A stretch of DNA of 64,000 nucleotides. Source: Sphingomicrobium arenosum (GTDB lineage: Bacteria; Pseudomonadota; Alphaproteobacteria; Sphingomonadales; Sphingomonadaceae). The translations under genes and the position numbers were made by a program. The notes beneath the pieces were generated by a model. The model had not been told where the DNA came from. It did no database searches and saw only the letters and a program-made list of their open reading frames with translations. Location of the stretch: NCBI RefSeq assembly GCF_026157085.1, contig NZ_JANPVN010000001.1, positions 1 through 64,000 on the forward strand, read 5' to 3'. Position 1 is the first letter of the stretch. Every line of letters starts with the position of its first letter. This document shows, in pieces, positions 13,973 through 38,808 of this stretch.

Positions 13973-14217
13973 CGAAATTTAATCGGCGTTTTAATTCTCG
14001 CGCAACTCAATCTGTCCTAACGGGATAGCGATTCTCCCTGGTGGTATGCCGTCCCGAAGAAGCGTTGTCCCGCCCGGGGGGTGGGAGTTCGCGTTGACGA
14101 GGGCGGTCCCTGGGGGGGATTTCACTTCGATCATTCCTGGCGTGCCGGTTCACGTGACCGGCATGGACGGGGGTGCGCGGCGACCATGTTCCGGGATCAG
14201 TTCCGGAAGCCATTGCC
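13973..14217. promoter_or_regulatory. Leader of the first giant autotransporter gene, with a 7-bp dyad
   Basis: 245 bases upstream of the adhesin start. It contains the inverted repeat TGCCGGT-TCACGTG-ACCGGCA at 14143-14163, whose loop is itself the palindrome CACGTG, and a direct repeat of GTTCCGG near 14200. The dyad could be an operator for the adjacent LuxR-type regulator or a leader hairpin. I see no confident -35 and -10 boxes; AT-rich sequence just after 13972 could be a promoter. Confidence 0.4.
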
Positions 14218-17200
14218 ATGTCGACCAAGCGTACCGCTCTTCTCCTTCTTGCCACCACCTCGATGACGCTGCCGCAGATGGCGAACGCGGGGACGGTGAC
14301 GGCGGGCAAGGCATCCATCTCGCTGGCGCAGGACGGCGATTGCGGTCTTGGCGCGAGCCCCACCGTGTTCACGATCACCGCCCCGACGCGGTCGTCCTAT
14401 CCGACCCCGTCACCCGCCCGTGACTATTACACGGGCAATTACGTCGGGTTTCATCAGGGTGGCACGGTCATCACTTCCGCAAAGGTGCAGGCATCGCCTG
14501 ATAGCGTGACGGTTCCGTCGTTAGATACCTCGAAGCTCGCGCAGGCGCGTTCCTATGTCTATTATGCCGAATCTACGACCTACGTAACCACGGACTTCTA
14601 TGCGCCCACGACGACATACGTTCAATATCGCACGTTGTACGATCAGCCTGTAGTCTTCGATCCCTCTCAAGTCGACCCGTCCTGCCCCGGCGATTATAAC
14701 CCGGGACCCGCGCCGGTCATCGATGTCACGCCGGCGGGCGACCTGCCCGATGACGGGGTGATCGAGATCAGCGCCAACGAGCGCCTCGTCGGGCTCGAGG
14801 CGTCCGACTTCACCATCAGCGGCGGCATCGTCGAGAGCGTGGTGCAGAACGACACGCTGGGGCACAGCTTCAGCGTCACCATCACGCCCAGCGCATCGAC
14901 CGTCGATCTGACGCTGCCCGCCGGGGCGGCCAAGGACGTGACCGGCAACAACAGCCCGGCAGTGTCGCGCAGCTACAGCGCTGTACCCGCCGATACGACC
15001 GCCCCCACCGGCTATTCGGCAAGCTTCGACGATGCGGCGATGAACGCGAGCGAGGTCGGCTCGGCGAGCTTCACCATGGCGGGCGCCGAAGTGGGCGCGA
15101 CCTACGCCTATTCGATCACCTCCTCGGGTGGCGGCAGCGCGGTTACGGGCAGCGGCACCGTGAGCGCGACCGACCAACAGGTGACGGGCCTCAACCTCTC
15201 GGGTCTCGCCGATGGGACGTTGACGCTTTCGCTGACGCTCACCGACGCCGCCAGCAATGTCGGCAGCGCGGTCTCCGCGACGGCGTCCAAGGACACGGTG
15301 GCGCCAAACGATATCGAGACGATGTTCTCGGCGCAGTGGATCACGTCCGCCAATGTCTCGGGCTATACCGTCGAACTGACCAATGCGACGGCGGGGGCGA
15401 CCTATACGCTGACCGCCACGCCGTTCAGCGGCGGCGGCGCTACGGTCAGCGTCAGCGGCACCGCGACCGGTAGCCCGTCGACGACCCCCGCGATGGACCT
15501 GTCCGGCCTTCCCGACGGCTATGTCAATTTCAAGCTGAGCTATACCGATGCGGCGGGTAATGCGGCGGCGGATCGCTACTGGTCCATGCAGAAGGACGTG
15601 ACCGCGCCGTCGGGCTATGGCGTGGCGTTCGACGCCGACAGCTTCGATTATGCCGCGTGGGTCGCTGACAGCATGAGCTTTACCGTGACGGGCGGCGAGG
15701 CCGGATCCTATGTCGACTATGTGGTCACGAGCAGCGGCGGCGGCAGCACCTCGGGAACGGCCAGCAGCACGGCGGCCGACCAGGTCATCACGATCAATGA
15801 CAGCTTCCGCCTCTCGGAAGGCACGCTGACGATCGAGGTGAAGCTGCGTGACCGGTCGGGCAACATCGGCGCGGTCGTGACCGACACGGCGGAGCTCGTC
15901 TTCGACAGCGAAGCTCCCTCTGGCTATTCGGTCAGCTTCCCGGACACCTATGTCAATGCGAGCGAATCGACCAGCACCAGCTTCGTGATGGCGGGCGCCG
16001 AGGTGGGCGCGACCTACAATTATTCGTTCACGACGCTCAACAGCTATACTTCGAGCACGGGCACGCTGCCGGGTTCGGCTGGAGCCACCGTCACCGGGAG
16101 CGGCACGGTCACGGCAGCCGACCAGACGGTCGGGGGGATCGACATCTCCTCGCTCGGCGACGGGCAACTGCGCGTCGTGCTGACGCTGACCGATGCCGCG
16201 GGCAACGTGGGCGAGGCGGTCAACAGCGGCGGCGCGCCGGCGTTCAAGGACACCAGTACGCCCGCGTCGGCCGCCAATTTCCCGCGGGCCTATATCAACA
16301 GTGCAAACCTCGACAGTTCGGCGCCCTATATCTCGGTGCCCACGAGCAACTCTACCTACAGCTATACGCTGACCAGTTCGGGCGGCGGCGCGAGCCAGAG
16401 CGGCTCTGGCACGCTGACGGGCGTCTCGGGCTCGAGCGCTGCGGTGCCCGGCGTCAATGTGGCGGCGATGGCCGATGGCACGCTGACGCTCGAATTGCAG
16501 ATCACCGACGCGGCGGGCAACGGTCCGTTCACGTCGATCGCCACCACGCTCAAGGACACGGTCGCCCCGAGCCCGTCGGTCCAGTGGACCAAGACCCAAT
16601 ATAACGCCGACGATATCGCGACAGCCGGTCTGCGCTTCACCAACGTGGAGGCGGGAGATACGTATAGCTGGCGGCTCAATGGCACCACGGTCACCGGCAC
16701 CGGCACCTTCTCCTCTTCGGACGAGGTCGTTTATATCGATCTGACCGGTTATGCCGACGGAACCTACTGGGTCACCGCCTCGGTCACCGATCCGCAGTTC
16801 AACAAGAGTGCCGACGTCGCGCGCCCGACCGAAAAGGACACGGTCGGTCCGGCGCCGACGCTCGCCTTTCCGTCGCCCACCATCGCATGGGAAAGCCGCG
16901 ATGCGGTGACGCTGACGGCGCCGTTCAACTGCGAGGTCAATCGCGGTTGCGATTTCGAACTGTCGATCACGTCGTCGGGAGGCGGGTCCCCGGTGACGGC
17001 GAGCGGGTCGAAGGCCTGGAACGCGCCCAGCAACGACATCGGCCCGCTCGACCTGTCGGGCCTGGCGGCGGGCACGCTGACGGCGACACTCAAGGTGACC
17101 GATACCGAGGGCAACCACACGACCGTCGAGGCGACCGCGACGCTGGCGGGCGATGCGACCGCGCCGACAGGCTATTCGGCGAGCTTCGACGATGCGCTGC

Positions 17201-20200
17201 TGAACGCTTCCGAAGCGACCAACGCGGCCTTCACCATGGCGGGCGCCGAAGTGGGCGCGACCTATGCCTATTCGATCACGTCGAGTGGCGGCGGCAGCGC
17301 GGTCACCGGTTCGGGCACGGTCGCGTCGACCGGCGAGCAACTCTCGGGCCTCGACTTGTCGGGGCTCGGCGATGGCACGCTCACCCTCTCGCTCACGCTG
17401 ACCGACGCGGCGGGCAATGCCGGGAGCGCGGTGACCGCGAGTACCATCAAGGATGCGACCGGCCCAAGCGGCTACGACACCTATTTCGACGTCTCGAATA
17501 TCGCCGCGGACAAGGCTTCGTCCTCGCAACTCAACCTTCGCAACGCGGGCGTGGGCGACAGCTTCACCTATCGGGTGACGAGTTCGGGCGGGGGCAAGCC
17601 GGTAACCGGCAGCGGCACGGTGGCGAGCAACCCGCAGATCACGACCGTGGACCTGCGCGGACTGGCCGACGGCGCGCTCACGCTAGAGATGACGGTCACC
17701 GACAGCGCAGGCAATGTCGGTGCGACGGTCATGAGCAGCGGCACGCTCGATACCACCGCGCCGGGCGCGCCGGTGATCAGCGCCGCGTCCCTGATCACCA
17801 GCGCCAATGCCGCCAATTTCAGCTTCGATGCCTCCAGTCTCGAAATCGGCGCACGGGTCGAGGTCACCATATCTGGCGGCTCGAAGTGGGTCGCCCAGTC
17901 GCTGGCGGACAATGACGCGGACACGCAGTCGTTCACCGGCTTCGATCTCTCGGGCTTTGACGATGGCATGATCATGATCGAGGTGACGGCCGTCGATGCC
18001 GTCGGCAACCGGACGACCTCGATGACCACCGTCGACAAGGATGCGTCGGGGCCGAGCGGCCATATGGTGGCGATGGACGCGGCCAGCTATGACGACGCGA
18101 CGCTCGGCAATGCCTCGATCGTGGTCAGCGACGGCGAACTCGCGTCGACCTACGCCTACAGCATTACAAGTTCGGGCGGCGGCGCGGCGGTGACCGGGAG
18201 CGGCGAGATCGGCTCCAGCAACCACATCGTGACGGGGATCGACCTGTCGAGCCTCAATGACGGCACGCTGACCGTCTCGGTGGTGCTGGCCGATGCCTAT
18301 GGCAATAGCAGCGCGGCCGTGACCGACACGGCGACGCTCCAGCGCGACATCGCTGCGCCCACCGGCTATTCGGTGAGCTTCGTCGATCCGCTGATGTCGT
18401 CCGTTGAGTGGGGCAATTTCAACCTGACCGGGGCGGAAGTCGGGACGACCTATGCCTGGACGATCAGCTCTTCGGGTGGCGGGTCGATCGCTGGGAGCGG
18501 CACCGTTACGGCGGCGAGCCAGCTGATCGACGGCATCGCCCTCGGCACTCTTGGCGAGGGCGAACTGACGCTGTCGCTGACGCTCACCGACGCCGCCGGC
18601 AATATCGGCACTGCCGCGACCGCCATCGGCACGCTCGACCGGACGCTGTGGCCGGCAAGCTATACGCCGGTTCCGATCGATGGCGGCGACGTGACAGCCT
18701 ATACGCTCGCGCTATCCGGGCTGGAGATCGGCGCGACCTATCGTGTCAGCGTGCGCAGCCAGACGGACGGCACGCAGGTCGACGGAAGCGATTTCGTCGC
18801 GACCGCGACCGAGATGGCATCGCCGGCGCTGGACGCCAGCGGCGTGAGCGACGGCGCGGTCTGGGCGATGGTCATGGTGACCGACCCGGCGGGCAACAGC
18901 GTCACAACCTATTCTACCACGACCAAGGACGTCGGCGCCCCCGCCGGCTATGCGGTGACGCTCGGCGCGGCCAGCTATGACGACGCGACCCTGTCGAGCG
19001 CGAGCTTCGAGATGACCGGTGCCGAAGTCGGCGCGACCTTCGATTATACCATCACGAGCTCGGGCGGCGGGACGCCCGTCGCCGGGAACGGCACGGTCAC
19101 CTCGGCAGCACAGACCGTCAGCGGGATCGATCTGTCGCCGCTCGGCGACGGAACGCTGACGCTGTCGCTGACGCTGACCGACCGCGTTGGCAACGAGGGC
19201 CTCGCGGCCACCACGACCGCGGCCCTTCAGCGCGACGTCACCGCCCCCACGGGCTATGCGGTCGCGTTCGGCGGCACGCTGATCAGCGCGGCCGACGCCG
19301 CCAGCGTCTCGTTCGACATGACCGGCGCCGAAATCGGCGCCACCTATGCCTATGAAATCAGCTCCTCGGGTGGCGGCACGGCGGTGACCGGCACCGGCAC
19401 GATCACGGCCTCGAGCCAGCAGGTGTCGGGGCTCGACCTGTCGGGTCTCGGCGATGGCACGCTGACCCTGTCCATGACGCTGACCGACGCGGCGGGCAAT
19501 GTCGGTGATGCGGCGACCGGCACGGCAACCAAGGACACGGGCGCGCCTATCGATTATGGCTTCGACCTGTTCGACACCGTGATCGCCAGCGCCAATGCGG
19601 CCGCCTACAACGTCCCGGTGCTTTTCGCCTCCGATCCGGCTGGCTACACCGTCGATCTCGAATTTGCGTCTACGGGTGGCGGCAGCCTGAGCGAAAGCTA
19701 TGCCGTCTCGGGATCGCAGGACCAGCGCAGCGTCGACCTCGCCGCGCTTGGCGATGGCGATGTCACGATGCGCTTCAGGCTCACCGATGCTGCGGGCAAT
19801 GTCGGTGCATGGGTCTCGGCCGCGCTCATCAAGGACACCGTCGGCCCGGTCATTTCGCATGGCGCCCTGTCGGTCTTCTCGGGCGTCCTCGAGACCACCA
19901 TCTCGCTGGACGACACCAGCGGCCTGTATCTCGACTATCGCGTGACCTCCTCCAATGGCGGCACGCCCATCACCGGCACGATCCCGGCGGACAGCAGCAC
20001 ATCGTTCCAGGCCTTTGTGGGCAGTCTGCCGAGCGGCATCCTGACCCTCACGCTCGAAGGGGCCGATGCCTATGGCAACCGGACCAGTGTCAGCAGCACC
20101 ATCGATGCCGATCTCGCAGCGCCGACCGGCTATGCCATCGCCTTTGCCGATAGCGATATCGCCGCCAACGAAGCCGCCGGCATCACACTTGAGCTGACGG

Positions 20201-22812
20201 GTCTGGAGAGTGATTCGACCTATTCCGTCACTCTAATTAGCGAAAGCGGCGGCACGCCCATCGTGCTGCGCGGTGCGGCCTCTGGTAGCACCCACACCAT
20301 CAACGGCATCGATGTGTCCGGCCTCGCCGGTGGGACGCTCATGGCCTATCTCGTCGTGTCCGATGCCGCGGGCAATGGGGGTGACGAGGTCTATGCGACG
20401 GCGGCCAAGGATACGGCCGTCCCCGAGACGATCGTCACCGCGCCGAGCGGTGCAGGCCTCCAGCCCTTCGCGCTGCCGCTCTCGTTCGGCGAGCCGGTCA
20501 CCGGTCTCACTGCCGGGGACTTCCTCGTCGCGAATGCCGGTGTGACGTTGAGCGGGGGTCCTGCCGACTATGTCCTAACCGTGACTCCGACGGGCGCAGG
20601 CGATGTCACTATTGGGCTGCCCGCAGGCGCGGCGCAGGACGTGGCGGGCAACCCCACCGCCGCGGTAGACGCGATCACCATCGCTATCGACGCCGTGGTC
20701 CCCGAACCCATGGTCTCCACCCCGCCCGCCAGCGTCAACGGTCCCTTCGACCTGTCGATGTCGTTCGGCGAGCCGGTCACCGGTCTCGAGATCGCCGACT
20801 TCATCGTCGAGAATGCGACGATAACCTTGTCGGGCGGTCCGGCCGACTGGACCATCACCGTCACCCCGACCGGCGATGGCGACATTGCCATCCGTCTTCC
20901 CGAGGGCGCGGCGCAGGATGCGTCGGGGAACCCGACCAAGGCTTTTGCCGCCGATATCGCGGTCGCCTACGACGTCACCGCGCCGGTACCCATGGTGAGC
21001 CCGCCTGCGGGCGAGGGCCTCGCGGCCTTCGACCTGCCGATCACCTTCGGCGAGGACGTGTTCGGCCTCACCGCCTCGGACTTCATCGTGGCCAATGCGA
21101 GCGTCATCCTGACGGGCGGGCCGAGTAGCTATGTGCTCACGGTGACGCCGAGCGGCGCGGGCGATGTCACCATCGCGCTGCCCGAAGGCGCGGGCGAAGA
21201 CGGCGCGGGCAACCCAACCGCCGCCATCGTGACCATCACGATCGCGATCGACGCGGTGTTGCCCGAACCCGTGGTCTCGGTGCCGCCGACGAGCGTCAAC
21301 GGGCCGTTCGACCTGTCACTCTCGTTCGGCGAGCCGGTCATCGGGCTCGAGGCCTCCGACTTCATTGTCGAGAATGCGACGATCGCGCTGTCGGGCGGTC
21401 CGGCCGACTGGATCATCACCGTCACTCCGACGGGCGGGGGCGACATCGCCATCCGCCTGCCCGAGGGCGCGGCGCAGGACGCGTCGGGCAATCCGACCAA
21501 GGCCTTTGCCGCCGACATTGCGGTGGCCTTCGACGACGAGGCCCCGACCGCGACGCTGAGCGCCGCGCCGGGGCGGATCACCGGGCCGTTCGACCTGGCC
21601 ATCGCCTTCTCCGAAGCGGTCAGCGGGCTGGCGCTCGATGACTTCACGCTGGTCAATGCCAGCGTGTCGGACCTGCGCACCACCGATGCCAGCCATTATG
21701 TCGTCACCGTGACGCCGAGCGCCATGGGCGCCTTCAGCGTCGCGCTGGCCGCCGACGCGGTGGTCGACGGTGCCGGCAATGGCAACCCCGCCTCCGCCGC
21801 ATATGCCGGCCAATATATCGACGAGGCTGCGGTCCGGAAGGAAACCGTCTCGCTCGTCGCGGGCTTCATGGGACGGCGCGGCGACCAGATCATGTCGGCC
21901 GAGCCCGACCTGGGCTCGATGCTGCTCGATCAAGGCGCTGGCGGCAGCGTCGCCGCCAATGGCGAGGGCGCCAATGTGCGCCTGGCGTTCAACGGCACGC
22001 TGAACCTGTCGGATCTCGGGGTCCGGCTCGGCGAGGCTCATGCCAAGCGGATCGGCCTGTGGCTTCGCGGCTCCTACGTCCATGCCGACGGCGGCGCGAC
22101 CGACAGCGACCTCTGGATGGTCCATGGCGGCGCGCATTATCGCTTCGATGACAAGGCATTGCTTGGCCTGATGGGCCAGTATGACGATGCCGCCTTGTCG
22201 GACGATACGGCGGGCAGCGCTGCCGAGGGCACGGGCTGGATGGTCGGCCCCTATTTCGCCGCCCGTCTCGCGCCGCGCCTCGTGGTCGATGGCCGCGCGG
22301 CGTGGGGCCAGTCGGACAATGAGGTGTCGCCCTATGGCACCTATGTCGACGGCTTCGATGCGACGCGCTCGCTCTATCGCTTCGGCGTGACCGGCGACCT
22401 CGACCTGTCGAAGAGCTGGTCGCTGCGACCGCATGCGCGCCTGATCCGCTTCCGTGAGGAGAGCGAGGCCTATGTCGACAGCCAGCAGGTATCGATCCCG
22501 GCGGTCAGCGTCGAGGTCGGACGTCTCGCCTTCGGCCCGACGATCGAACGACGGATCGAAGCGAACGAGCGCCACGTCCAGATCGCGCCGCGCTTCGGCA
22601 TCGAGGGACTTTGGGACTTCGACAGCGAACGCCGCGCCGATGGCGTGGCCGGCTTCGATGGATCGAGTGACGACTTCCGCGCCCGTCTGAAAGCGGGCGT
22701 TACCATCGGAACAGGGCAGGTCGGCGTCGACGTCGACACTTTCTACGATGGGATCGGAGCGAACGACTATTCGGCCTATGGCCTGTCGGTGAAACTCCGC
22801 ACGGGTTTCTGA
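14218..22812 (+). CDS. Giant autotransporter adhesin with tandem Ig-like repeats (2864 aa)
   Basis: Start at ATG 14218 gives a clean signal peptide (MSTKRTALLLLATTSMTLPQ then MANA, cleavage near residue 24). After a unique N-terminal region comes one Ig-like unit of type B (about residues 170-255). Then follow 18 type-A units of about 95 residues, recognised by the boundary D-x-x-AP-x-GY, the middle SYSITSSGGGSAVTGSGTV-like strand and the end DLSGLGDGTLTLSLTLTDAA. Five more type-B units (SFGEPVTGL, SGGPADY, GAAQDxxGNPT) occupy about residues 2065-2540. The last 300 residues are an autotransporter beta-barrel ending in LSVKLRTGF with terminal Phe. The protein should be secreted by type V export and displayed as an extended fibre, probably for adhesion or aggregation. 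Units differ enough that the gene is not simply a recent tandem expansion, apart from the 561-bp dimer duplication at its end. The LuxR-type gene lies upstream; a second giant autotransporter follows. Confidence 0.9.
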   Translation: MSTKRTALLLLATTSMTLPQMANAGTVTAGKASISLAQDGDCGLGASPTVFTITAPTRSSYPTPSPARDYYTGNYVGFHQGGTVITSAKVQASPDSVTVPSLDTSKLAQARSYVYYAESTTYVTTDFYAPTTTYVQYRTLYDQPVVFDPSQVDPSCPGDYNPGPAPVIDVTPAGDLPDDGVIEISANERLVGLEASDFTISGGIVESVVQNDTLGHSFSVTITPSASTVDLTLPAGAAKDVTGNNSPAVSRSYSAVPADTTAPTGYSASFDDAAMNASEVGSASFTMAGAEVGATYAYSITSSGGGSAVTGSGTVSATDQQVTGLNLSGLADGTLTLSLTLTDAASNVGSAVSATASKDTVAPNDIETMFSAQWITSANVSGYTVELTNATAGATYTLTATPFSGGGATVSVSGTATGSPSTTPAMDLSGLPDGYVNFKLSYTDAAGNAAADRYWSMQKDVTAPSGYGVAFDADSFDYAAWVADSMSFTVTGGEAGSYVDYVVTSSGGGSTSGTASSTAADQVITINDSFRLSEGTLTIEVKLRDRSGNIGAVVTDTAELVFDSEAPSGYSVSFPDTYVNASESTSTSFVMAGAEVGATYNYSFTTLNSYTSSTGTLPGSAGATVTGSGTVTAADQTVGGIDISSLGDGQLRVVLTLTDAAGNVGEAVNSGGAPAFKDTSTPASAANFPRAYINSANLDSSAPYISVPTSNSTYSYTLTSSGGGASQSGSGTLTGVSGSSAAVPGVNVAAMADGTLTLELQITDAAGNGPFTSIATTLKDTVAPSPSVQWTKTQYNADDIATAGLRFTNVEAGDTYSWRLNGTTVTGTGTFSSSDEVVYIDLTGYADGTYWVTASVTDPQFNKSADVARPTEKDTVGPAPTLAFPSPTIAWESRDAVTLTAPFNCEVNRGCDFELSITSSGGGSPVTASGSKAWNAPSNDIGPLDLSGLAAGTLTATLKVTDTEGNHTTVEATATLAGDATAPTGYSASFDDALLNASEATNAAFTMAGAEVGATYAYSITSSGGGSAVTGSGTVASTGEQLSGLDLSGLGDGTLTLSLTLTDAAGNAGSAVTASTIKDATGPSGYDTYFDVSNIAADKASSSQLNLRNAGVGDSFTYRVTSSGGGKPVTGSGTVASNPQITTVDLRGLADGALTLEMTVTDSAGNVGATVMSSGTLDTTAPGAPVISAASLITSANAANFSFDASSLEIGARVEVTISGGSKWVAQSLADNDADTQSFTGFDLSGFDDGMIMIEVTAVDAVGNRTTSMTTVDKDASGPSGHMVAMDAASYDDATLGNASIVVSDGELASTYAYSITSSGGGAAVTGSGEIGSSNHIVTGIDLSSLNDGTLTVSVVLADAYGNSSAAVTDTATLQRDIAAPTGYSVSFVDPLMSSVEWGNFNLTGAEVGTTYAWTISSSGGGSIAGSGTVTAASQLIDGIALGTLGEGELTLSLTLTDAAGNIGTAATAIGTLDRTLWPASYTPVPIDGGDVTAYTLALSGLEIGATYRVSVRSQTDGTQVDGSDFVATATEMASPALDASGVSDGAVWAMVMVTDPAGNSVTTYSTTTKDVGAPAGYAVTLGAASYDDATLSSASFEMTGAEVGATFDYTITSSGGGTPVAGNGTVTSAAQTVSGIDLSPLGDGTLTLSLTLTDRVGNEGLAATTTAALQRDVTAPTGYAVAFGGTLISAADAASVSFDMTGAEIGATYAYEISSSGGGTAVTGTGTITASSQQVSGLDLSGLGDGTLTLSMTLTDAAGNVGDAATGTATKDTGAPIDYGFDLFDTVIASANAAAYNVPVLFASDPAGYTVDLEFASTGGGSLSESYAVSGSQDQRSVDLAALGDGDVTMRFRLTDAAGNVGAWVSAALIKDTVGPVISHGALSVFSGVLETTISLDDTSGLYLDYRVTSSNGGTPITGTIPADSSTSFQAFVGSLPSGILTLTLEGADAYGNRTSVSSTIDADLAAPTGYAIAFADSDIAANEAAGITLELTGLESDSTYSVTLISESGGTPIVLRGAASGSTHTINGIDVSGLAGGTLMAYLVVSDAAGNGGDEVYATAAKDTAVPETIVTAPSGAGLQPFALPLSFGEPVTGLTAGDFLVANAGVTLSGGPADYVLTVTPTGAGDVTIGLPAGAAQDVAGNPTAAVDAITIAIDAVVPEPMVSTPPASVNGPFDLSMSFGEPVTGLEIADFIVENATITLSGGPADWTITVTPTGDGDIAIRLPEGAAQDASGNPTKAFAADIAVAYDVTAPVPMVSPPAGEGLAAFDLPITFGEDVFGLTASDFIVANASVILTGGPSSYVLTVTPSGAGDVTIALPEGAGEDGAGNPTAAIVTITIAIDAVLPEPVVSVPPTSVNGPFDLSLSFGEPVIGLEASDFIVENATIALSGGPADWIITVTPTGGGDIAIRLPEGAAQDASGNPTKAFAADIAVAFDDEAPTATLSAAPGRITGPFDLAIAFSEAVSGLALDDFTLVNASVSDLRTTDASHYVVTVTPSAMGAFSVALAADAVVDGAGNGNPASAAYAGQYIDEAAVRKETVSLVAGFMGRRGDQIMSAEPDLGSMLLDQGAGGSVAANGEGANVRLAFNGTLNLSDLGVRLGEAHAKRIGLWLRGSYVHADGGATDSDLWMVHGGAHYRFDDKALLGLMGQYDDAALSDDTAGSAAEGTGWMVGPYFAARLAPRLVVDGRAAWGQSDNEVSPYGTYVDGFDATRSLYRFGVTGDLDLSKSWSLRPHARLIRFREESEAYVDSQQVSIPAVSVEVGRLAFGPTIERRIEANERHVQIAPRFGIEGLWDFDSERRADGVAGFDGSSDDFRARLKAGVTIGTGQVGVDVDTFYDGIGANDYSAYGLSVKLRTGF
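20420..21540 (+). repeat. Duplicated dimer of type-B Ig-like units (period 561 bp)
   Basis: Four consecutive type-B units alternate in kind. Units 1 and 3 share ANAxVxLxGGP, YVLTVTP and NPTAA, ending AITIAIDAV or TITIAIDAV. Units 2 and 4 share SVNGPFDLS, SFGEPV, DFIVENATI, LSGGPADW and AFAADIAVA almost completely. Unit 2 starts near 20701 and unit 4 near 21262, so a two-unit block of 561 bp (187 residues) was duplicated in tandem. Confidence 0.75.
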
Positions 22813-23514
22813 CGACCATGCCAGCGCTGCGATGTTCCCTTCTGAGATCCGCGGACGGTCGCGCGCCCTAGGGAAAGGGGGGCGAGCCTTTCCCATGGTC
22901 CGCTGGGCTGGCGCTTTTGAGTGACGAGCGGGGGGCGCGTGGCGTTGCGCCGGTGGGCGCGAGCGGGTCGTGCGGCATTCTTCGGAATCAGCGCGCGGGG
23001 ACTCGTGCACGCTCTTGTCGCTTCGATAGAGCAGCGCATCGTCGCTACTCGCGCGGCTCCAAGCCCCCGCCGTTTGTCGATGATCGGGCACATTTGGTCG
23101 AAATCGAAAATTTTTTTCGCGCCTGAGGTGGAGCCATATTGGCCACAATGGGCGCTTGGAAGAGGGCTCAGAAAGCGGATTTTCGGCGTTCAACTGGCGC
23201 TTAAAAAAGGGCGTTAAATCAGCCTCATAGATTAGTGGTCGCGGCGCGGTGGCGGGCGAGGAGGGCGAAACGAAAAACCGCACAAAACCGCCATGGTCGA
23301 GAAAAGTTCCCAGAAAAAAGCTAATCCATATTAGCGATTTCGCGCAGGAGCCTGTTGCGTCGCGTCGCGGATGAGGATAGGGCTGAAATGCTATGTCGTG
23401 CGGCTTGCCCCCGGCTCGGTGCGCGCTTCCTGTTGGAGGCGTTGTCGGGAAGGTGGCCCAAACGATGGGTTCCAAATGGCTCCGGTCCGGGGGCCGAACA
23501 GGGGAATATTACTG
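22813..23514. other. 702-bp gap between the two giant autotransporter genes, with three dyads
   Basis: No convincing gene. A hairpin GGGAAAGG-GGGGCGAG-CCTTTCCC at 22871-22894 lies 58 bp after the first adhesin and may end its transcript, though it lacks a T-run. CGAAAA-TTT-TTTTCG lies at 23105-23119. A perfect dyad GCTAAT-CCAT-ATTAGC at 23320-23335 sits about 180 bases before the second adhesin start and is a candidate operator. Local AT content is higher around 23100-23340, as for a promoter region. Open frames here are short and overlap on both strands. Confidence 0.45.
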
Positions 23515-32397
<8,883 letters not shown>

Positions 32398-32427
32398 GCG
32401 ACGGGCCGCAAGGCTTGGAAAAGAAAG

Positions 32428-32458
32428 AGGCCGGCTCCTTCAGGGGTCGGCCTTTTTC
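32428..32458 (+). terminator. Rho-independent terminator of the second autotransporter gene
   Basis: The stem AGGCCGGCTCC pairs with GGGGTCGGCCT around a TTCA loop over 11 positions, with two G-U pairs, and is followed directly by five Ts. It lies 31 bases after the stop codon. A weaker copy of the same structure is at 32646-32674. Confidence 0.8.
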
Positions 32459-32507
32459 CTTGTCCGATTGTCTGAAGGAGGCACTTGAATCCGTGGAGTG
32501 TGCGCCT

Positions 32508-32690
32508 CCGGCAACCATCACTTGCCCCGACGGCACGGTGATCCTAGCGAGCGAGCAGTGCCCGCCGCCGCCGCCGCCGCCGCCGCCGCCCACCCCGGAA
32601 CCGAAATGCGGCTAAGCGACGGGCCAGAAGGCTTTGAAAAGACGGAGGCCGGCTCCTTCAGTGGACGGCCTTTTCCCTTGGACTACAGCC
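32508..32690 (+). repeat. Second copy of the autotransporter 3' end and terminator (gene-end duplication)
   Basis: From CAACCATCACTTGCCCCGAC through the Cys peptide codons, a CCG run, the AAATGCGGCTAAGCGACGGG stop region and a terminator-like hairpin (32646-32674), this segment repeats 32286-32460. In the copy the coded tail would read TCPDGTVILASEQCP, poly-Pro, then TPEPKCG instead of APEPERG. No start codon or upstream coding sequence belongs to it, and it is out of frame with the real gene. It is therefore a duplication scar or the last remnant of another autotransporter gene. The hairpin has mismatches that weaken it. Confidence 0.75.
32646..32674 (+). terminator. Degenerate second terminator copy
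   Basis: AGGCCGGCTCC-TTCA-GTGGACGGCCT followed by four Ts, a mutated version of the terminator at 32428-32458 with two mismatched positions in the stem. It may act as a back-up terminator. Confidence 0.5.
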
Positions 32691-32899
32691 CGCATGATGG
32701 ATGGTGATCCGGAGGGCATTCGGGAGCAGGGCAGGGCCCACTGAGGGCCGTAGAGCGTGCGGAGGAATGCGGGGCCTTGCGGAGGAAGAGCCAAGGCGCG
32801 CGGGGAGGCGTAGGACACGCGGGATTGAACTCGCCTCATGGATGAAGACGGGAGGCGCGCGGATGCAGGGCGAGCGAGCCGAGGCGGGGGAGGAGCAAC

Positions 32900-33560
32900 G
32901 CATGGGATCTCGCCTGACGGGTGGAATGCTCCCCCACGCCGAGAATGATCAAACACATTGCTTCAAAGCGGCCGTGGGTCGCGGTGGAGGTCGGCAGGGC
33001 TCACGGTCGATCCTGCACCATGGATAATATCGAAGTTTCCTTGTGGAGATCGAGCGAAACGACACAGACTTGCGCGACGGGTGGGGGCCTTGCCCCGGTC
33101 GGTCGGAACGCCTCGCTTGGCCGTGGCAAAGCAAACTGCCTTGCGTCGAAGCCGCGAGAGGAGGCGCCGGGCTCGCGGGGATGAGCAGGGCTCGCGGGTT
33201 CGATCGTACCCTAAGCACAAGATGGAGGCTTCCTCGGGCTCAGGCAGAGCGGGAGGGTGCGGACTTGCGCGACGGGTGGGGCCTTCCCGTTCGTCGTTAC
33301 GCTTCCCCAAGCCGTGGCTAAGCAGACCGTGTTGCGTCGAAGCCGCCGGAGGATGCGGGGATAGGCAGGGCTCGCGGGAATATGCAGGGCTCGCGCGGCC
33401 GATCTCGTCGCATGGACGATAGATGCCGCCCCGGATGCTGGCAGAGCGCGCCGATGCGGACCCGTCCGATGAGTAGAGCCTTGGCCATGGGCCGGAACGC
33501 TACCGCTAACCGAGGCTAATCAAACTTTTTTGCGTCAAAGCCGCGCCGGAGGCCGCGCGG
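32900..33560 (+). repeat. Array of degenerate non-coding repeats, period about 195 bp
   Basis: Units begin near 33068 (ACTTGCGCGACGGGTGGGGG), 33263 (ACTTGCGCGACGGGTGGGGC) and 33460 (ACCCGTCCGATGAGTAGAGC), with a more decayed unit near 32905 (TCTCGCCTGACGGGTGGAAT). Spacings are 195 and 197 bases, and about 160 for the decayed one. Each unit continues through GTGGCAAAGCAAAC, GTGGCTAAGCAGAC or AGGCTAATCAAAC to TTGCGTCGAAGCCG or TTGCGTCAAAGCCG. It then runs through GCAGGGCTCGCGGG to a region ending GGCAGAGCG. Traces may extend up to about 32735. No unit keeps a common open frame, so the repeat is not coding. It lies directly upstream of the TPR-sulfotransferase gene. I do not recognise the family. 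Confidence 0.65.
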
Positions 33561-33564
33561 GAGG

Positions 33565-33593
33565 TTGCAACGCCTCGGCAAAAGCCCTTTATT
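33565..33593 (+). promoter_or_regulatory. Candidate promoter of the TPR-sulfotransferase gene
   Basis: TTGCAA and TTTATT are separated by exactly 17 bases, about 70 bases before the ATG at 33662, just after the repeat array ends. The boxes are imperfect, so this is tentative. Confidence 0.35.
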
Positions 33594-33661
33594 GGAGCCA
33601 AGCGGATCGGGGGGCCGCTCGGGGCTCCTCGTTCGACCTTTTGACAGTCGAGAGTAGCATC

Positions 33662-35896
33662 ATGACCAAAGCCAAGACCAAGACCCCCGGCTCCAAGCAA
33701 GGCGCCGCCAAGGCCGCCAAGGCGAAGCAGAGCGCCGCGCAGGCGAAGGCGGCCAAGGCCCCCGTCGAGAATGTCGAGCAGGCCATTTCGGGCGCACAGA
33801 CCGGCAAGGTCAACGTCACCCCGATCAAGGCCGTCGAGATGGCGGGAAAGCTTTATGGGCAGGGCAAATACGACCAGGCCGAGCGGGTGTGCCGCCAGAT
33901 CGTCGAGGCGCGTCCCGGCATGGCCGATGCGCACAATATCCTCGGCGTGACGCTGTTCGCGCGCGGCAAACGGGACGAGGGTATCGAAGCGGTGCGCCGC
34001 GCCATCAAGATCACCCCCAAGGCGTCGAGCTATCATGCCAATCTCGGCGAACTGCTGCGCCAGCAGGGCCAACTCGACGAGGCCAAGGAAGCGCTCGAAC
34101 AGTCGGTCGCGCTGACCCCCGACAATGCGCAGGCGCATAACAACCTCGGCATCATCGCCTTCGACCAGAAGCGCTTCAAGGATGCGATCGGACATTATCG
34201 CAAGGCCATCGAGCTGAAGCCCGAGATGAGCGAGGCGCTCAACAACCTCGGCAACGTCCTGCGGCTCGCGGGCAAGAATGACGAGGCGATCGAGGCCTAT
34301 CAGGACGCGCTCACCTATCGCGAAATCTATCCCGAGGCGTATAACAATCTCGGCACGCTGCTGCAGGCCAAGGGGCAGAAGGAAGAGGCCGAGCATGCGA
34401 TGCGCAAGGCGATCCAGCAGTCGCCCCAATATATCGAGGCGCGCAACAATCTGGCGAGCCTCTACCATGCCGAGAACAAGGATGTGGATGCGCTGCGCAT
34501 TCTCGCCGAAACGCTGAAATTCGCGCCGCAGGACGTGGCCACGCTGCTACTGACAGCGCGTATCCAGATGGGTCGCAATGCGCACCAGGCCGCCGAACAG
34601 GCGCTGCGCTTCGTGATCGGGCGCGAGCCCAAGAATGTCGAGGCGCTGACCATGATGGGCCAGCTGTTGCACGAGACCGACCGATGCGAGGAAGCGATCG
34701 AAAGGCTCGAAACGGCATTGGAGGAAAATGCCGACCATCCCGAAGCGCGCAACTTCTATGGCATCGCGCTGAAATCGGTCGGTCGACTCGACGAGGCGCG
34801 CGAGCATATCCTTAGCGCGCTGGCGAAGAACCCCAATCTCATCGGCGCCTACGCCAATCTCGGCGATCTCGTGAACTTCAAGGAAGAAGACGAGCTGTTC
34901 GACGGCATGGACCGGATCATGAAGCGGGTGAAGAACCCCGAGGCGCCGGGCATGCTGGCGCTGCACTTCGCTTATGCCAAGGCGCTGGCCGACCGCGGCG
35001 AGCATGAGCGCGCGCTCGAGCATTATATTCTCGGCGGCAAGATGAAGCGCGCCCAGCTTAACTATAATGAGGATGAGACGCACGGCTTCTTCGATGCCAT
35101 TCGCGCCGCCTTCCCCAAGGAGGTGTTCGAGAACCGCAAGTTCGAGGGGATCGACAACGAGCGCCTCGTCTTCATCGTCGGCATGCCCCGTTCGGGCTCG
35201 ACGCTGACCGAGCAGATCATCTCGACCCACAAGGACGTGTTCGGCGCGGGCGAGGTGAAATATTTCAGCCAGTCGATGGGCAAGCTGCGCGACCGTTTCC
35301 CGAGCCTGCCCAAATTCCCCGACATGATGGAGAAGCTCAATCCCAAGCAGATGGAGATTCTCGGCAACACCTACCTCAATCGGATGACCGAAGGGGCGGG
35401 CGATGCGAAACGGGTGACCGACAAGCTGCTGACGAACTTCTTCTTCATCGGGCTCATTCACCTGCTTTATCCCAAGGCAAAGATCATCAACACGCAGCGC
35501 GACCCCGTCGACACCTGCCTGTCGGGCTTCACCAAGCTGTTCAAGGACGACATGCCCCACAGCTACAACCTCGAGGAGCTGGGCCGCTATTACGCCAAAT
35601 ATCAGCAGCTGATGGACCATTGGAACGAGGTGCTGCCCGAGGGCGTGCTCTACACCAGCCAGTATGAGAAGGTGGTCGACGACATCGACACCGAGGCCAA
35701 GAAGCTGATCGACTTCATCGGGCTCGACTGGGATCCCAACTGCCTGAAGTTCTACGAGAGCAAGCGGGCGGTGAAGACCGCGAGCGTGGCGCAGGTTCGC
35801 AAGCCCATCTACAAGAGCTCGGTGCAGCGCTGGAAGCGTTATGGTGAGGGGCTCAATCCGCTGGTCGAGGCGATCAAGGCGCAGTCGGCGGCCTGA
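33662..35896 (+). CDS. TPR-repeat sulfotransferase
   Basis: 744 residues. A Lys/Ala-rich N-terminal tail (about residues 1-45) precedes roughly ten TPR units (for example AHNILGVTLFARGKRDEGIE, AHNNLGIIAFDQKRFKDAIG and YNNLGTLLQAKGQKEEAEHA). From about residue 500 a Sulfotransfer_3 domain follows, with the PAPS loop FIVGMPRSGSTLTEQIISTH and INTQRDPVDTCLSGF as the 3'-phosphate region. The chosen ATG follows the repeat array; a longer frame runs back into non-coding repeats. Such TPR fusions suggest a protein or peptide acceptor, by analogy with tyrosylprotein sulfotransferases, but a glycan acceptor is possible. cysD and cysNC follow after a strong hairpin, so donor supply and use are genetically linked. 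There is no signal peptide, so it acts in the cytoplasm. Confidence 0.88.
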   Translation: MTKAKTKTPGSKQGAAKAAKAKQSAAQAKAAKAPVENVEQAISGAQTGKVNVTPIKAVEMAGKLYGQGKYDQAERVCRQIVEARPGMADAHNILGVTLFARGKRDEGIEAVRRAIKITPKASSYHANLGELLRQQGQLDEAKEALEQSVALTPDNAQAHNNLGIIAFDQKRFKDAIGHYRKAIELKPEMSEALNNLGNVLRLAGKNDEAIEAYQDALTYREIYPEAYNNLGTLLQAKGQKEEAEHAMRKAIQQSPQYIEARNNLASLYHAENKDVDALRILAETLKFAPQDVATLLLTARIQMGRNAHQAAEQALRFVIGREPKNVEALTMMGQLLHETDRCEEAIERLETALEENADHPEARNFYGIALKSVGRLDEAREHILSALAKNPNLIGAYANLGDLVNFKEEDELFDGMDRIMKRVKNPEAPGMLALHFAYAKALADRGEHERALEHYILGGKMKRAQLNYNEDETHGFFDAIRAAFPKEVFENRKFEGIDNERLVFIVGMPRSGSTLTEQIISTHKDVFGAGEVKYFSQSMGKLRDRFPSLPKFPDMMEKLNPKQMEILGNTYLNRMTEGAGDAKRVTDKLLTNFFFIGLIHLLYPKAKIINTQRDPVDTCLSGFTKLFKDDMPHSYNLEELGRYYAKYQQLMDHWNEVLPEGVLYTSQYEKVVDDIDTEAKKLIDFIGLDWDPNCLKFYESKRAVKTASVAQVRKPIYKSSVQRWKRYGEGLNPLVEAIKAQSAA

Positions 35897-35917
35897 GGGC
35901 GCATCAATATAAGGCGT

Positions 35918-35942
35918 GATGGGTCGGCAGTGCCGGCCCATC
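35918..35942 (+). promoter_or_regulatory. Intercistronic 11-bp hairpin between the TPR-sulfotransferase gene and cysD
   Basis: GATGGGTCGGC pairs with GCCGGCCCATC around an AGT loop, all 11 positions paired with one G-U. No T-run follows, so it may stabilise or process the transcript or attenuate it rather than end it. Confidence 0.55.
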
Positions 35943-35970
35943 GCTTATCCGGGGGCATATCCGAGGCTTC

Positions 35971-36873
35971 ATGGCGGCACTGACCCATCTCGAACGGCTC
36001 GAGGCCGAGAGCATCCATATCCTGCGCGAGACGGTGGCCGAGGCCGAACGCCCGGTGATGCTCTATTCGATCGGCAAGGATTCAGCGGTGATGCTGCACC
36101 TTGCGAAGAAGGCGTTCTTTCCGGGGCCACTGCCTTTCCCGCTGCTCCATGTCGACACGACGTGGAAATTCTCGGCAATGTACGCGATGCGCGAGAAGGT
36201 GGGGAGCGAGGAGGGCATCGAACTGCTCGTCCACCGCAATCCCGACGGGGTGGAGCGGGGGATCAACCCGTTCGATCATGGCGCGCTGCATACCGATCTG
36301 TGGAAGACCGAAGGGCTCAAGCAGGCGCTCGACCATTATAAGTTCGACGCGGCCTTTGGCGGGGCGCGGCGCGACGAGGAGAAAAGCCGCGCCAAGGAGC
36401 GCATTTTTTCGTTCCGATCGGCGCAGCATCGCTGGGACCCCAAGAGGCAGCGGCCCGAATTGTGGAGCCTCTACAATGTGCGCCGCGCGCGCGGCGAGAC
36501 GATGCGCGTCTTTCCGCTGTCCAATTGGACCGAGCTCGACATCTGGCAATATATCATGGCCGAGGGGATCGAGATCGTGCCGCTCTACCTCGCCGAGAAG
36601 CGCCCGGTGGTGGAACGCGACGGCATGCTGCTGATGGTCGATGACGAACGCTTCCGGCTCGAGGCGGGCGAGGAGCCGCAGATGCGTTCGGTACGGTTCA
36701 GGACGCTCGGCTGCTATCCTCTGTCGGGGGCGGTCGAGAGCGAGGCGGACACGATCGAGAAGGTGGTGCAGGAGATGCTGCTGACCACGACGAGCGAGCG
36801 CCAGGGGCGGCTGATCGACAGCGACGCGGGTGCGGGCTCGATGGAGAAGAAGAAGCAGGAGGGCTATTTCTAG
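35971..36873 (+). CDS. cysD: Sulfate adenylyltransferase subunit 2
   Basis: 300 residues, full length. CysD catalyses adenylylation of sulfate by ATP to APS together with the GTPase subunit CysN. The PP-loop ATP pyrophosphatase motif is [18 protein letters not shown] near residues 32-50. Family blocks [37 protein letters not shown] and [16 protein letters not shown] are present. The stop is followed immediately by the cysNC start. With no APS or PAPS reductase gene nearby and a sulfotransferase gene upstream, this copy is likely devoted to sulfation, although it could also serve assimilation. Confidence 0.95.
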
Positions 36874-38808
36874 ATGGCTCGTCCCGGCGACCTCGACCGC
36901 GCATTGATCGAGAAGGACATCTCGGCCTTCCTGACGCGCCAGCGCAACAAGGAGCTCTTGCGCTTCATCACCTGTGGCAGCGTGGACGATGGCAAGTCGA
37001 CGCTGATCGGGCGGCTGCTCTACGACAGCCAGCAGATCTTCGAAGACCAGATGGCGAGCCTCGAGGCGGACAGCAAACGGCAGGGCACGCAGGGACAGAA
37101 GATCGACTTCGCGCTGCTCGTCGACGGCCTGTCGGCCGAGCGGGAGCAGGGCATCACGATCGATGTCGCCTATCGCTTCTTTACCACCGACAAGCGCAAG
37201 TTCATCGTCGCCGACACGCCAGGGCACGAGCAATATACGCGCAACATGGTGACGGGCGCCTCGACGGCGGATCTCGCGGTGCTGCTGGTCGATGCGCGAA
37301 AAGGCGTGCTCCAGCAGACCAAGCGGCACAGCTATCTGGCGAGCCTCGTCGGTATCCGGCATTTCGTGCTGGCGGTGAACAAGATGGACCTCGTCACCTA
37401 TGACAAGGCCGTGTTCGACAAGATCGTCGACGATTATGCCAAGTTCGCGAAAAAGGTAGGGATCGAGCAGTTCACGGCGATCCCGGTGTCGGGGCTCGAG
37501 GGGTCGAATATCGCCAGCCTCGATACCGCCAACACGCCCTGGTACGAGGGGCCGACGCTGGTCGAGCATCTCGAAAGCGTGCCGGTCGCAAGCGCTGAGA
37601 ACCAGGCCAAGCCGTTCCGCATGCCGGTGCAGTGGGTCAATCGCCCGAACCAGCATTTCCGCGGCTTTTCAGGCCAGGTGGCGGCGGGCCGCGTGACGCC
37701 CGGCGACAAGGTGCGAGTGCTGCCCTCGGGACGGACCAGCACGGTCGAGCGGATCGTGGTGCATGGCGGCGACCTCGAGGAGGCGGTCGCGGGACAGTCG
37801 GTCACGCTGACGCTGGCCGACGAGGTTGATTGTTCGCGCGGCGACGTGATCGCGCTGGCGGGCGATCCGCCCGAGAGCGCCGACCAGTTCGAGACGACCA
37901 TCGTCTGGATGGACGATGAGGCGCTGTTGCCGGGGCGGGCCTATTGGCTCAAGCTCGGTACCCAGACGGTGTCGGTGACGATCCAACCGCCCAAATATCG
38001 CGTCAACGTCAATACGCTGGCGCAGATGGCGGCCAAGACTCTGGAGCTGAACGACATTGGCGTCGCCGAGATCGCGACCGATCGCGACCTGGTGTTCGAA
38101 CCCTATGCCGATCCCGAAGGCGAGAGTGCCAATCGGACATTGGGTGGCTTCATCCTCATCGACAAGATGACCAATGCGACGGTCGGCGCGGGGATGATCA
38201 ACTTCGCGCTGCGGCGGGCGCAGAACATTCACCTGCAGGCGCTCGACATCGACCGCGAGACGCGCGCGCTGCAGATGGGCCAGCGGCCCGCGATCCTGTG
38301 GTTCACCGGCCTGTCGGGCGCGGGCAAGTCGACCATCGCCAATCTCGTCGAAAAGAAGCTAGTGGCGCGCGGGCGGCACACCTTCCTGCTCGATGGCGAC
38401 AATGTGCGGCATGGCTTGAACCGCGACCTTGGCTTTACCGACGCCGATCGGATCGAGAATATCCGGCGCATCGGCGAGGTCGCCAAATTGATGACCGAGG
38501 CGGGGCTGATCGTGCTGACCGCCTTCATCAGCCCGTTCCGTGCCGAGCGGCAGATGGTGCGCGAGATGTGCGATGACGGGACGTTTATCGAGATCTTCGT
38601 CGACACCCCGATCGAGGTCGCCGAGGAGCGCGACGTGAAGGGCCTTTATGCCAAGGCGCGCGCGGGCAAGATCAAGAATTTCACCGGGATCGACAGCCCC
38701 TACGAACCGCCGCTGGAGCCCGATGTGCAGATCGATACAACGCTGCTTGGGCCCGAGGAAGCGGCCACTGCGATCGTCGAGGCGCTCCTGCGGCGGCTTG
38801 AGGGGTGA
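36874..38808 (+). CDS. cysNC: Bifunctional sulfate adenylyltransferase subunit 1 / APS kinase
   Basis: 644 residues in a CysN-CysC (NodQ-type) fusion. The N-terminal GTPase has [18 protein letters not shown] (G1), [17 protein letters not shown] (G3) and NKMDLV (G4), then two beta-barrel domains. The APS kinase starts about residue 475, with the P-loop [20 protein letters not shown] and the [15 protein letters not shown] block. Together with CysD it converts sulfate to APS and then PAPS. It abuts cysD with no gap. In rhizobia NodQ serves Nod-factor sulfation; here the sulfotransferases at 33662 and 9649 are the likely users. Confidence 0.95.

Follow-up and report, generated by a model that had tools for sequence, protein, structure and literature searches.

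The spacer between a giant autotransporter gene and a TPR-sulfotransferase gene of Sphingomicrobium arenosum contains four degenerate units of about 190 bp each, lying head to tail over positions 32829-33580 of the window, by which we mean the whole stretch of 64,000 nucleotides analysed here (contig NZ_JANPVN010000001.1, positions 1 to 64,000). We think it probable that these units form a lineage-specific, non-coding tandem repeat of long period, which arose by local duplication of spacer DNA and has been decaying near-neutrally. The spacer measures 1264 bp from the autotransporter stop codon (32397) to the ATG of the TPR-sulfotransferase gene (33662), and its features are collected in Table 1.

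Table 1. Coordinates of the array, its core motifs and the flanking features within the window
Feature	Position	Strand	Basis and remarks
Giant autotransporter gene, upstream of the array	23371..32397	+	ORF of 3008 aa; PF03797 beta-domain, E 2.1e-40, last 465 residues
Terminator-like hairpin and T run 3' of the autotransporter gene	32428..32457	+	Read from the sequence; no call in the consensus scan
Second, partial copy of the 3' end of the autotransporter gene, with stop codon and terminator-like hairpin	32503..32680	+	First copy at 32279-32462
Unit u0	32829..33007	+	Most diverged by profile score; leave-one-out 35.9 bits; 59-62% identity to the other units
Core motif of u0	32950..32969	+	Pattern search, 71 genus genomes
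Unit u1	33008..33199	+	71% identity to u2; leave-one-out 75.8 bits
Core motif of u1	33132..33152	+	Pattern search, 71 genus genomes
Unit u2	33200..33398	+	Leave-one-out 77.3 bits; internal direct duplication, 19-bp period at 33355-33395
Core motif of u2	33323..33343	+	Pattern search, 71 genus genomes
Unit u3	33399..33580	+	Leave-one-out 71.1 bits; final 18 bp lie within the stretch shared with the closest relative
Core motif of u3	33521..33541	+	Pattern search, 71 genus genomes
Region 5' of the next gene, partly conserved	33563..33661	+	Matches the end of the spacer in the closest relative, 0/300 shuffles
TPR-sulfotransferase gene (744 aa), following the array	33662..35896	+	TPR families and Sulfotransfer_3, E 2.3e-38

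Results

Four degenerate units repeated in tandem

An earlier note on this DNA had described degenerate repeats of about 195 bp and had named comparison with shuffled sequence as the test by which they might be refuted; the units withstood it. For all six pairs of units, aligned locally with unit ends up to about 30 bp off the final delimitation, none of 500 dinucleotide-preserving shuffles matched the real score, and profiles built from three units recovered the fourth with the leave-one-out scores of Table 1, which none of 500 shuffles reached in any of the four tests (best shuffle overall, 6.7 bits). Identity from unit to unit is 57-71% over 140-189 aligned columns. The spacer holds, in other words, a tandem array: adjacent copies in the same orientation that resemble each other beyond chance across the whole period. 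At its default score (50), Tandem Repeats Finder called only the 19-bp sub-repeat within the array; that it misses the period of about 190 bp is expected because the copies are so diverged, and we therefore file the array only as a decayed one.

Several details had to be redrawn. The location first proposed (32900-33560) was right, with a true span that is slightly wider, and of the "at least three, probably four or more" units then envisaged, four hold. A fifth, upstream of u0 at 32620-32828, is not established: 59 of 500 shuffles did as well in the profile test, as did 53, 7, 61 and 124 of 1000 in pairwise comparison with u0, u1, u2 and u3, respectively, the test against u1 alone pointing toward a further unit. 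Three 14-mer blocks had been thought common to the units; ACTTGCGCGACGGG and TTGCGTCGAAGCCG occur without mismatch in u1 and u2 alone, and GTGGCAAAGCAAAC in no unit but u1, so that the blocks are not intact in all units. Of the regular spacing of 195-197 bp first described, the value of 195 bp holds for the first of these blocks from u1 to u2, whereas the core motif present once per unit, CARAC-N3/4-TTGCKTCRAAGC, recurs at intervals of 182, 191 and 198 bp. Upstream of u0 and into it (32700-32899), the plus strand is strongly purine-rich, with a GC skew of 0.37 and an AT skew of 0.38.

Coding potential of the array

Across codon phases, the GC content of the array ranges over 0.025, compared with 0.189-0.545 for 731-nt windows taken from four genes nearby. 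Stop codons number 26 over the six frames (3-6 per frame), and of 28 gap runs counted in the six unit pairs, which are not independent of each other, 24 have lengths not divisible by three. No protein relatives with an E of 1 or lower came up for the two longest ORFs overlapping the array, with which 28 and 419 candidates shared words but none scored, and five ORFs over the array region gave no Pfam match above the cut-off, a sub-threshold hit to MAGE_N (E 0.075) having been set aside. This bears out the earlier view of the array as non-coding and free of a conserved frame; a repeat within a protein-coding gene or pseudogene was rejected on these tests, there being no codon periodicity, no tendency of indels to preserve the frame and no protein relatives.

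A mechanically delimited sulfotransferase ORF (33530-35896) begins at a TTG within u3. The TPR-sulfotransferase protein of the closest relative, G078, is 83% identical, and its match begins at residue 3 counted from the ATG at 33662, so that automated annotation might wrongly place the start of the gene too far upstream, inside the array.

RNA structure and transcription signals

One option raised for the array was a family of small RNAs, with each unit encoding one. Bacteria are known to carry small RNAs in tandem copies, and two terminator-like hairpins, read by eye, separate the units from the upstream gene; yet the fold energies of core pieces of the four units (119-129 nt, both strands) stay within those of shuffles (z -0.81 to +1.57), as does that of a 973-nt stretch of the region (z 1.13 relative to 20 shuffles). 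The 29 pairs of the consensus fold yield a covariation term of just -0.44 kcal/mol, and 8 of them change on both sides in at least one sequence, four sequences making this a weak test. Over 32000-34000 no Rfam family reaches its gathering score, and over 32300-33700 consensus scans found no promoter-like site and one terminator-like site, the latter within the next gene on the minus strand, and left the hairpins read after the autotransporter gene uncalled; tRNA and tmRNA genes are absent from the window. The check for conserved RNA structure advised in the earlier note thus came out negative by fold, covariation and Rfam across the four sequences, and a small-RNA gene family, rejected on that basis as an assignment, appears to us highly improbable.

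Searches for further copies

Within its own genome the array stands alone. The best other BLAST matches were 15-44 bp long with E of 0.048 or worse (40 of 50 candidates scored), and a profile search found only the four units significant, the next match having an E of 0.35 (150 of 1616 candidates scored). Across 71 genomes of the genus, own genome included, the profile matched six others weakly (E 4.6e-4 to 8.3e-3), each time within an open frame of at least 225 codons, and nhmmer placed no second strong match beside any of these loci, one of which (L085) was judged by its open frame instead. A family sample of 397 genomes, again including our own and some of the genus, gave no other profile match at E 1e-4. 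By BLAST, three other genomes of that sample matched over 38-52 bp (E 1e-5 or better), and three other genomes in a first set of 61 relatives matched over 39-50 bp (E 1e-3 or better), all in open frames; in five of these six genomes the genes concerned are presumably a gamma-type carbonic anhydrase gene in G045, G051 and G303 and an aldo/keto reductase gene in G360 and G389. That these short or weak matches fall in open frames supports chance similarity without proving it, long frames being common by chance in GC-rich DNA. The family-wide searches scored few candidates per genome (8 by profile, 2 by BLAST) under stricter filters, by which weak matches may be lost, and the 70 other genus genomes and the 396 other genomes of the family sample overlap.

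Outside cellular genomes, 50,697 phage and 72,556 plasmid records contained no array match at E 1e-5, and viral contigs searched by one exact 20-mer of the array gave none; a contig scan queried with the neighbouring protein, and not with the array, returned three distant relatives only. The search for extra copies that had been recommended was accordingly negative in every collection, and the array has so far been found in one genome only. Among the papers listed for bacterial intergenic and satellite repeats, for Sphingomicrobium genomes and for TPR-sulfotransferase-autotransporter loci, none describes it; one reportedly concerns short intergenic direct repeats in Beggiatoaceae (PMC4679880).

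The known repeat classes dismissed at the outset fare no better now. CRISPR arrays likewise consist of regularly spaced repeats in non-coding DNA, but their repeats are short, near-identical and separated by unrelated spacers, whereas the repeat in this array spans the full period and is degenerate. An insertion sequence or MITE was rejected for want of inverted repeats at the edges and of further genomic copies, and dispersed palindromes of the REP or ERIC type were rejected since the genome holds no dispersed copies.

Orthologous spacers and the age of the array

Of the 71 genus genomes, own genome included, 12 match the TPR-sulfotransferase with an E of at most 1e-200, and spacers were compared in nine of the 11 relatives. 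The two left out are locus L029 (G024), whose spacer would come to about 29 bp with the ATG at 1531 as the start codon, and locus L061 (G081), where no autotransporter end was seen upstream. An autotransporter beta-domain lies directly upstream of the spacer in our genome and in all four relatives tested for it; in the other five of the nine, the locus includes a short end of the upstream gene, of the same kind by eye. The nine spacers measure 141, 150, 160, 168, 170, 202, 203, 260 and 358 bp, and none of them resembles the array, scores as high being reached by 60 to 292 of 300 shuffles. The spacer studied here is longer by roughly 900-1100 bp.

Such an excess looks insertion-like, and the array could be what remains of DNA that came from outside, either a mobile element or a decayed gene that contained internal repeats. 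Against this, the array edges have no terminal inverted repeats, the phage, plasmid and viral-contig searches at the thresholds given above were empty, and neither coding periodicity, protein relatives nor a second genomic copy was found; we regard such an origin as improbable.

The last 110 bp of the spacer resemble the spacer end of G078, from GGTTGCAAC (33563) onwards. Given that start, the array ends at or within 18 bp of the stretch shared with this relative. Similarity to the spacer ends of the other eight was not significant (35 to 264 of 300 shuffles as good). At fourfold-degenerate sites of three genes, divergence is 0.36-0.45 to G078, whose best cysD match in this comparison is only 68% identical, and 0.34-0.36 to G075. 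Divergence among array units is 0.29-0.43. Judged by these sequence distances, the duplications would date from roughly the time of the split from the nearest compared species, with a large uncertainty in a genome so rich in GC. Because the two kinds of divergence are similar, a lineage-specific origin is possible in time. A gain of the array in our lineage would be simpler than its loss in all nine relatives. The same similarity, on the other side, also allows an older array that was lost in the relatives.

A second duplication in the spacer

The 3' end of the autotransporter gene is itself duplicated, as two copies of 104 and 119 nt with 90% identity at offsets of 224 and 218 bp, for which Tandem Repeats Finder reports a period of 218 and 89% matches. 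Tandem duplication has hence occurred more than once in this spacer. The duplicated stretch (32279-32680) includes the proline-rich tail. We infer that the array units, too, derive from local spacer DNA, a source for which was searched and none found: neither the autotransporter 3' end nor its duplicate resembles the units, 616-972 of 1000 shuffles doing as well across the four of them, and origin from the leader at 33560-33661 was rejected, there being nothing beyond a 21-bp overlap of the compared segments.

A better-kept core in three of the units

Regulatory or protein-binding arrays had also been offered as explanations, and here the evidence is mixed. In the alignment of u1-u3, columns 105-146 (33121-33160 in u1) are 81% identical, compared with a mean of 65%. 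This block of about 40 columns, which contains the core motif, is the best kept of the three units (permutation p 0.016 in a 40-column window; 0.028-0.097 at other widths; all before correction for eight window tests). With u0 included the same permutation gives p 0.095-0.265, likewise uncorrected over the eight tests, and the 53 invariant columns among 131 in the four-way alignment do not cluster significantly (p 0.21). The better-kept block in u1-u3 could reflect constraint, and for the core of about 40 bp a binding-site role is weakly hinted at and unproven.

What such a role would mean is a cis-regulatory array, with one site per unit bound by a regulator or a nucleoid protein that controls the TPR-sulfotransferase, cysD and cysNC genes. 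It would fit with this that the array adjoins, on the upstream side, the stretch conserved with the closest relative, and that the core pattern has four sites in the genome, all inside the array, and one in the 70 other genus genomes, where it lies within a 534-codon open frame that we take to be rpoC. Set against it are the loss of significance with four units and for invariant columns, the want of a second core site elsewhere in the genome, which would be unusual for the operator of a regulator, and the nine relatives without the array, from whose absence there it follows that the gene set does not depend on it. Altogether we consider a regulatory array unlikely. Less likely still is its more specific form, a recently evolved, species-specific set of four sites in which a piece bearing an operator would have been duplicated in tandem, giving up to four copies of the site of a putative regulator directly in front of the TPR-sulfotransferase, CysD and CysNC genes and rewiring their control in this lineage.

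Genes around the array

From 23371 to 38808 the gene order is giant autotransporter, TPR-sulfotransferase, and then cysD- and cysNC-like genes, the last two presumably making PAPS. Matches to cysD and cysNC also lie alongside in G078 and G075. Considered together with loci L026, L027, L028 and L059, and with the beta-domain directly upstream in the four relatives tested, the set of autotransporter, TPR-sulfotransferase, cysD and cysNC is possibly a cluster for the sulfation of surface proteins. In front of the TPR-sulfotransferase gene, a weak promoter-like pair, TTGCAA (33565-33570) and TTTATT (33588-33593) separated by 17 bp, was read by eye and not called by the scan. Two very long ORFs follow each other in tandem, 14173-22812 (2879 aa) and 23371-32397 (3008 aa), the former carrying about three repeats of 279 bp at 20701-21535. 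An ORF of 238 aa at 1584-2300 resembles, we assume, an IS6-type transposase.

Discussion

The reading that we prefer is that of a lineage-specific, non-coding repeat of long period, and it agrees with the decayed satellite that was among the options first offered. Under it, a piece of about 190 bp from the spacer between the autotransporter and TPR-sulfotransferase genes would have been duplicated in tandem, successively, by replication slippage or unequal recombination. The copies would then have diverged close to neutrally, through substitutions and short indels, most of the latter of a length not divisible by three. The main physical effect would be that the conserved promoter-proximal region of the next gene was displaced from the terminators of the autotransporter gene.

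Similar cases can be found in the literature. Prokaryotes have been reported to carry unique satellites that do not code for protein (PMC6749651, PMC8161180). Those of the first report are likewise arranged head to tail, non-coding and not shared between loci, while the array described here is strongly diverged (57-71% identity), has four copies only and was found at one locus. It is a small, strongly decayed case of this kind. In Bacillus, tandem repeats of constant size are also without known function, and the authors discuss transcription as small RNAs or binding of nucleoid proteins (PMC8161180); those repeats are 20-21 or 52 nt long with several families per species, in contrast to a single array with a period of about 190 bp.

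As an ordinary decayed duplication, the array would mainly illustrate the growth of a bacterial spacer by tandem duplication and its later erosion, while the relatives kept a short spacer. If, on the other hand, the core is a protein site, the array would offer a clean case, confined to a single lineage, of a promoter gaining several operators by duplication.
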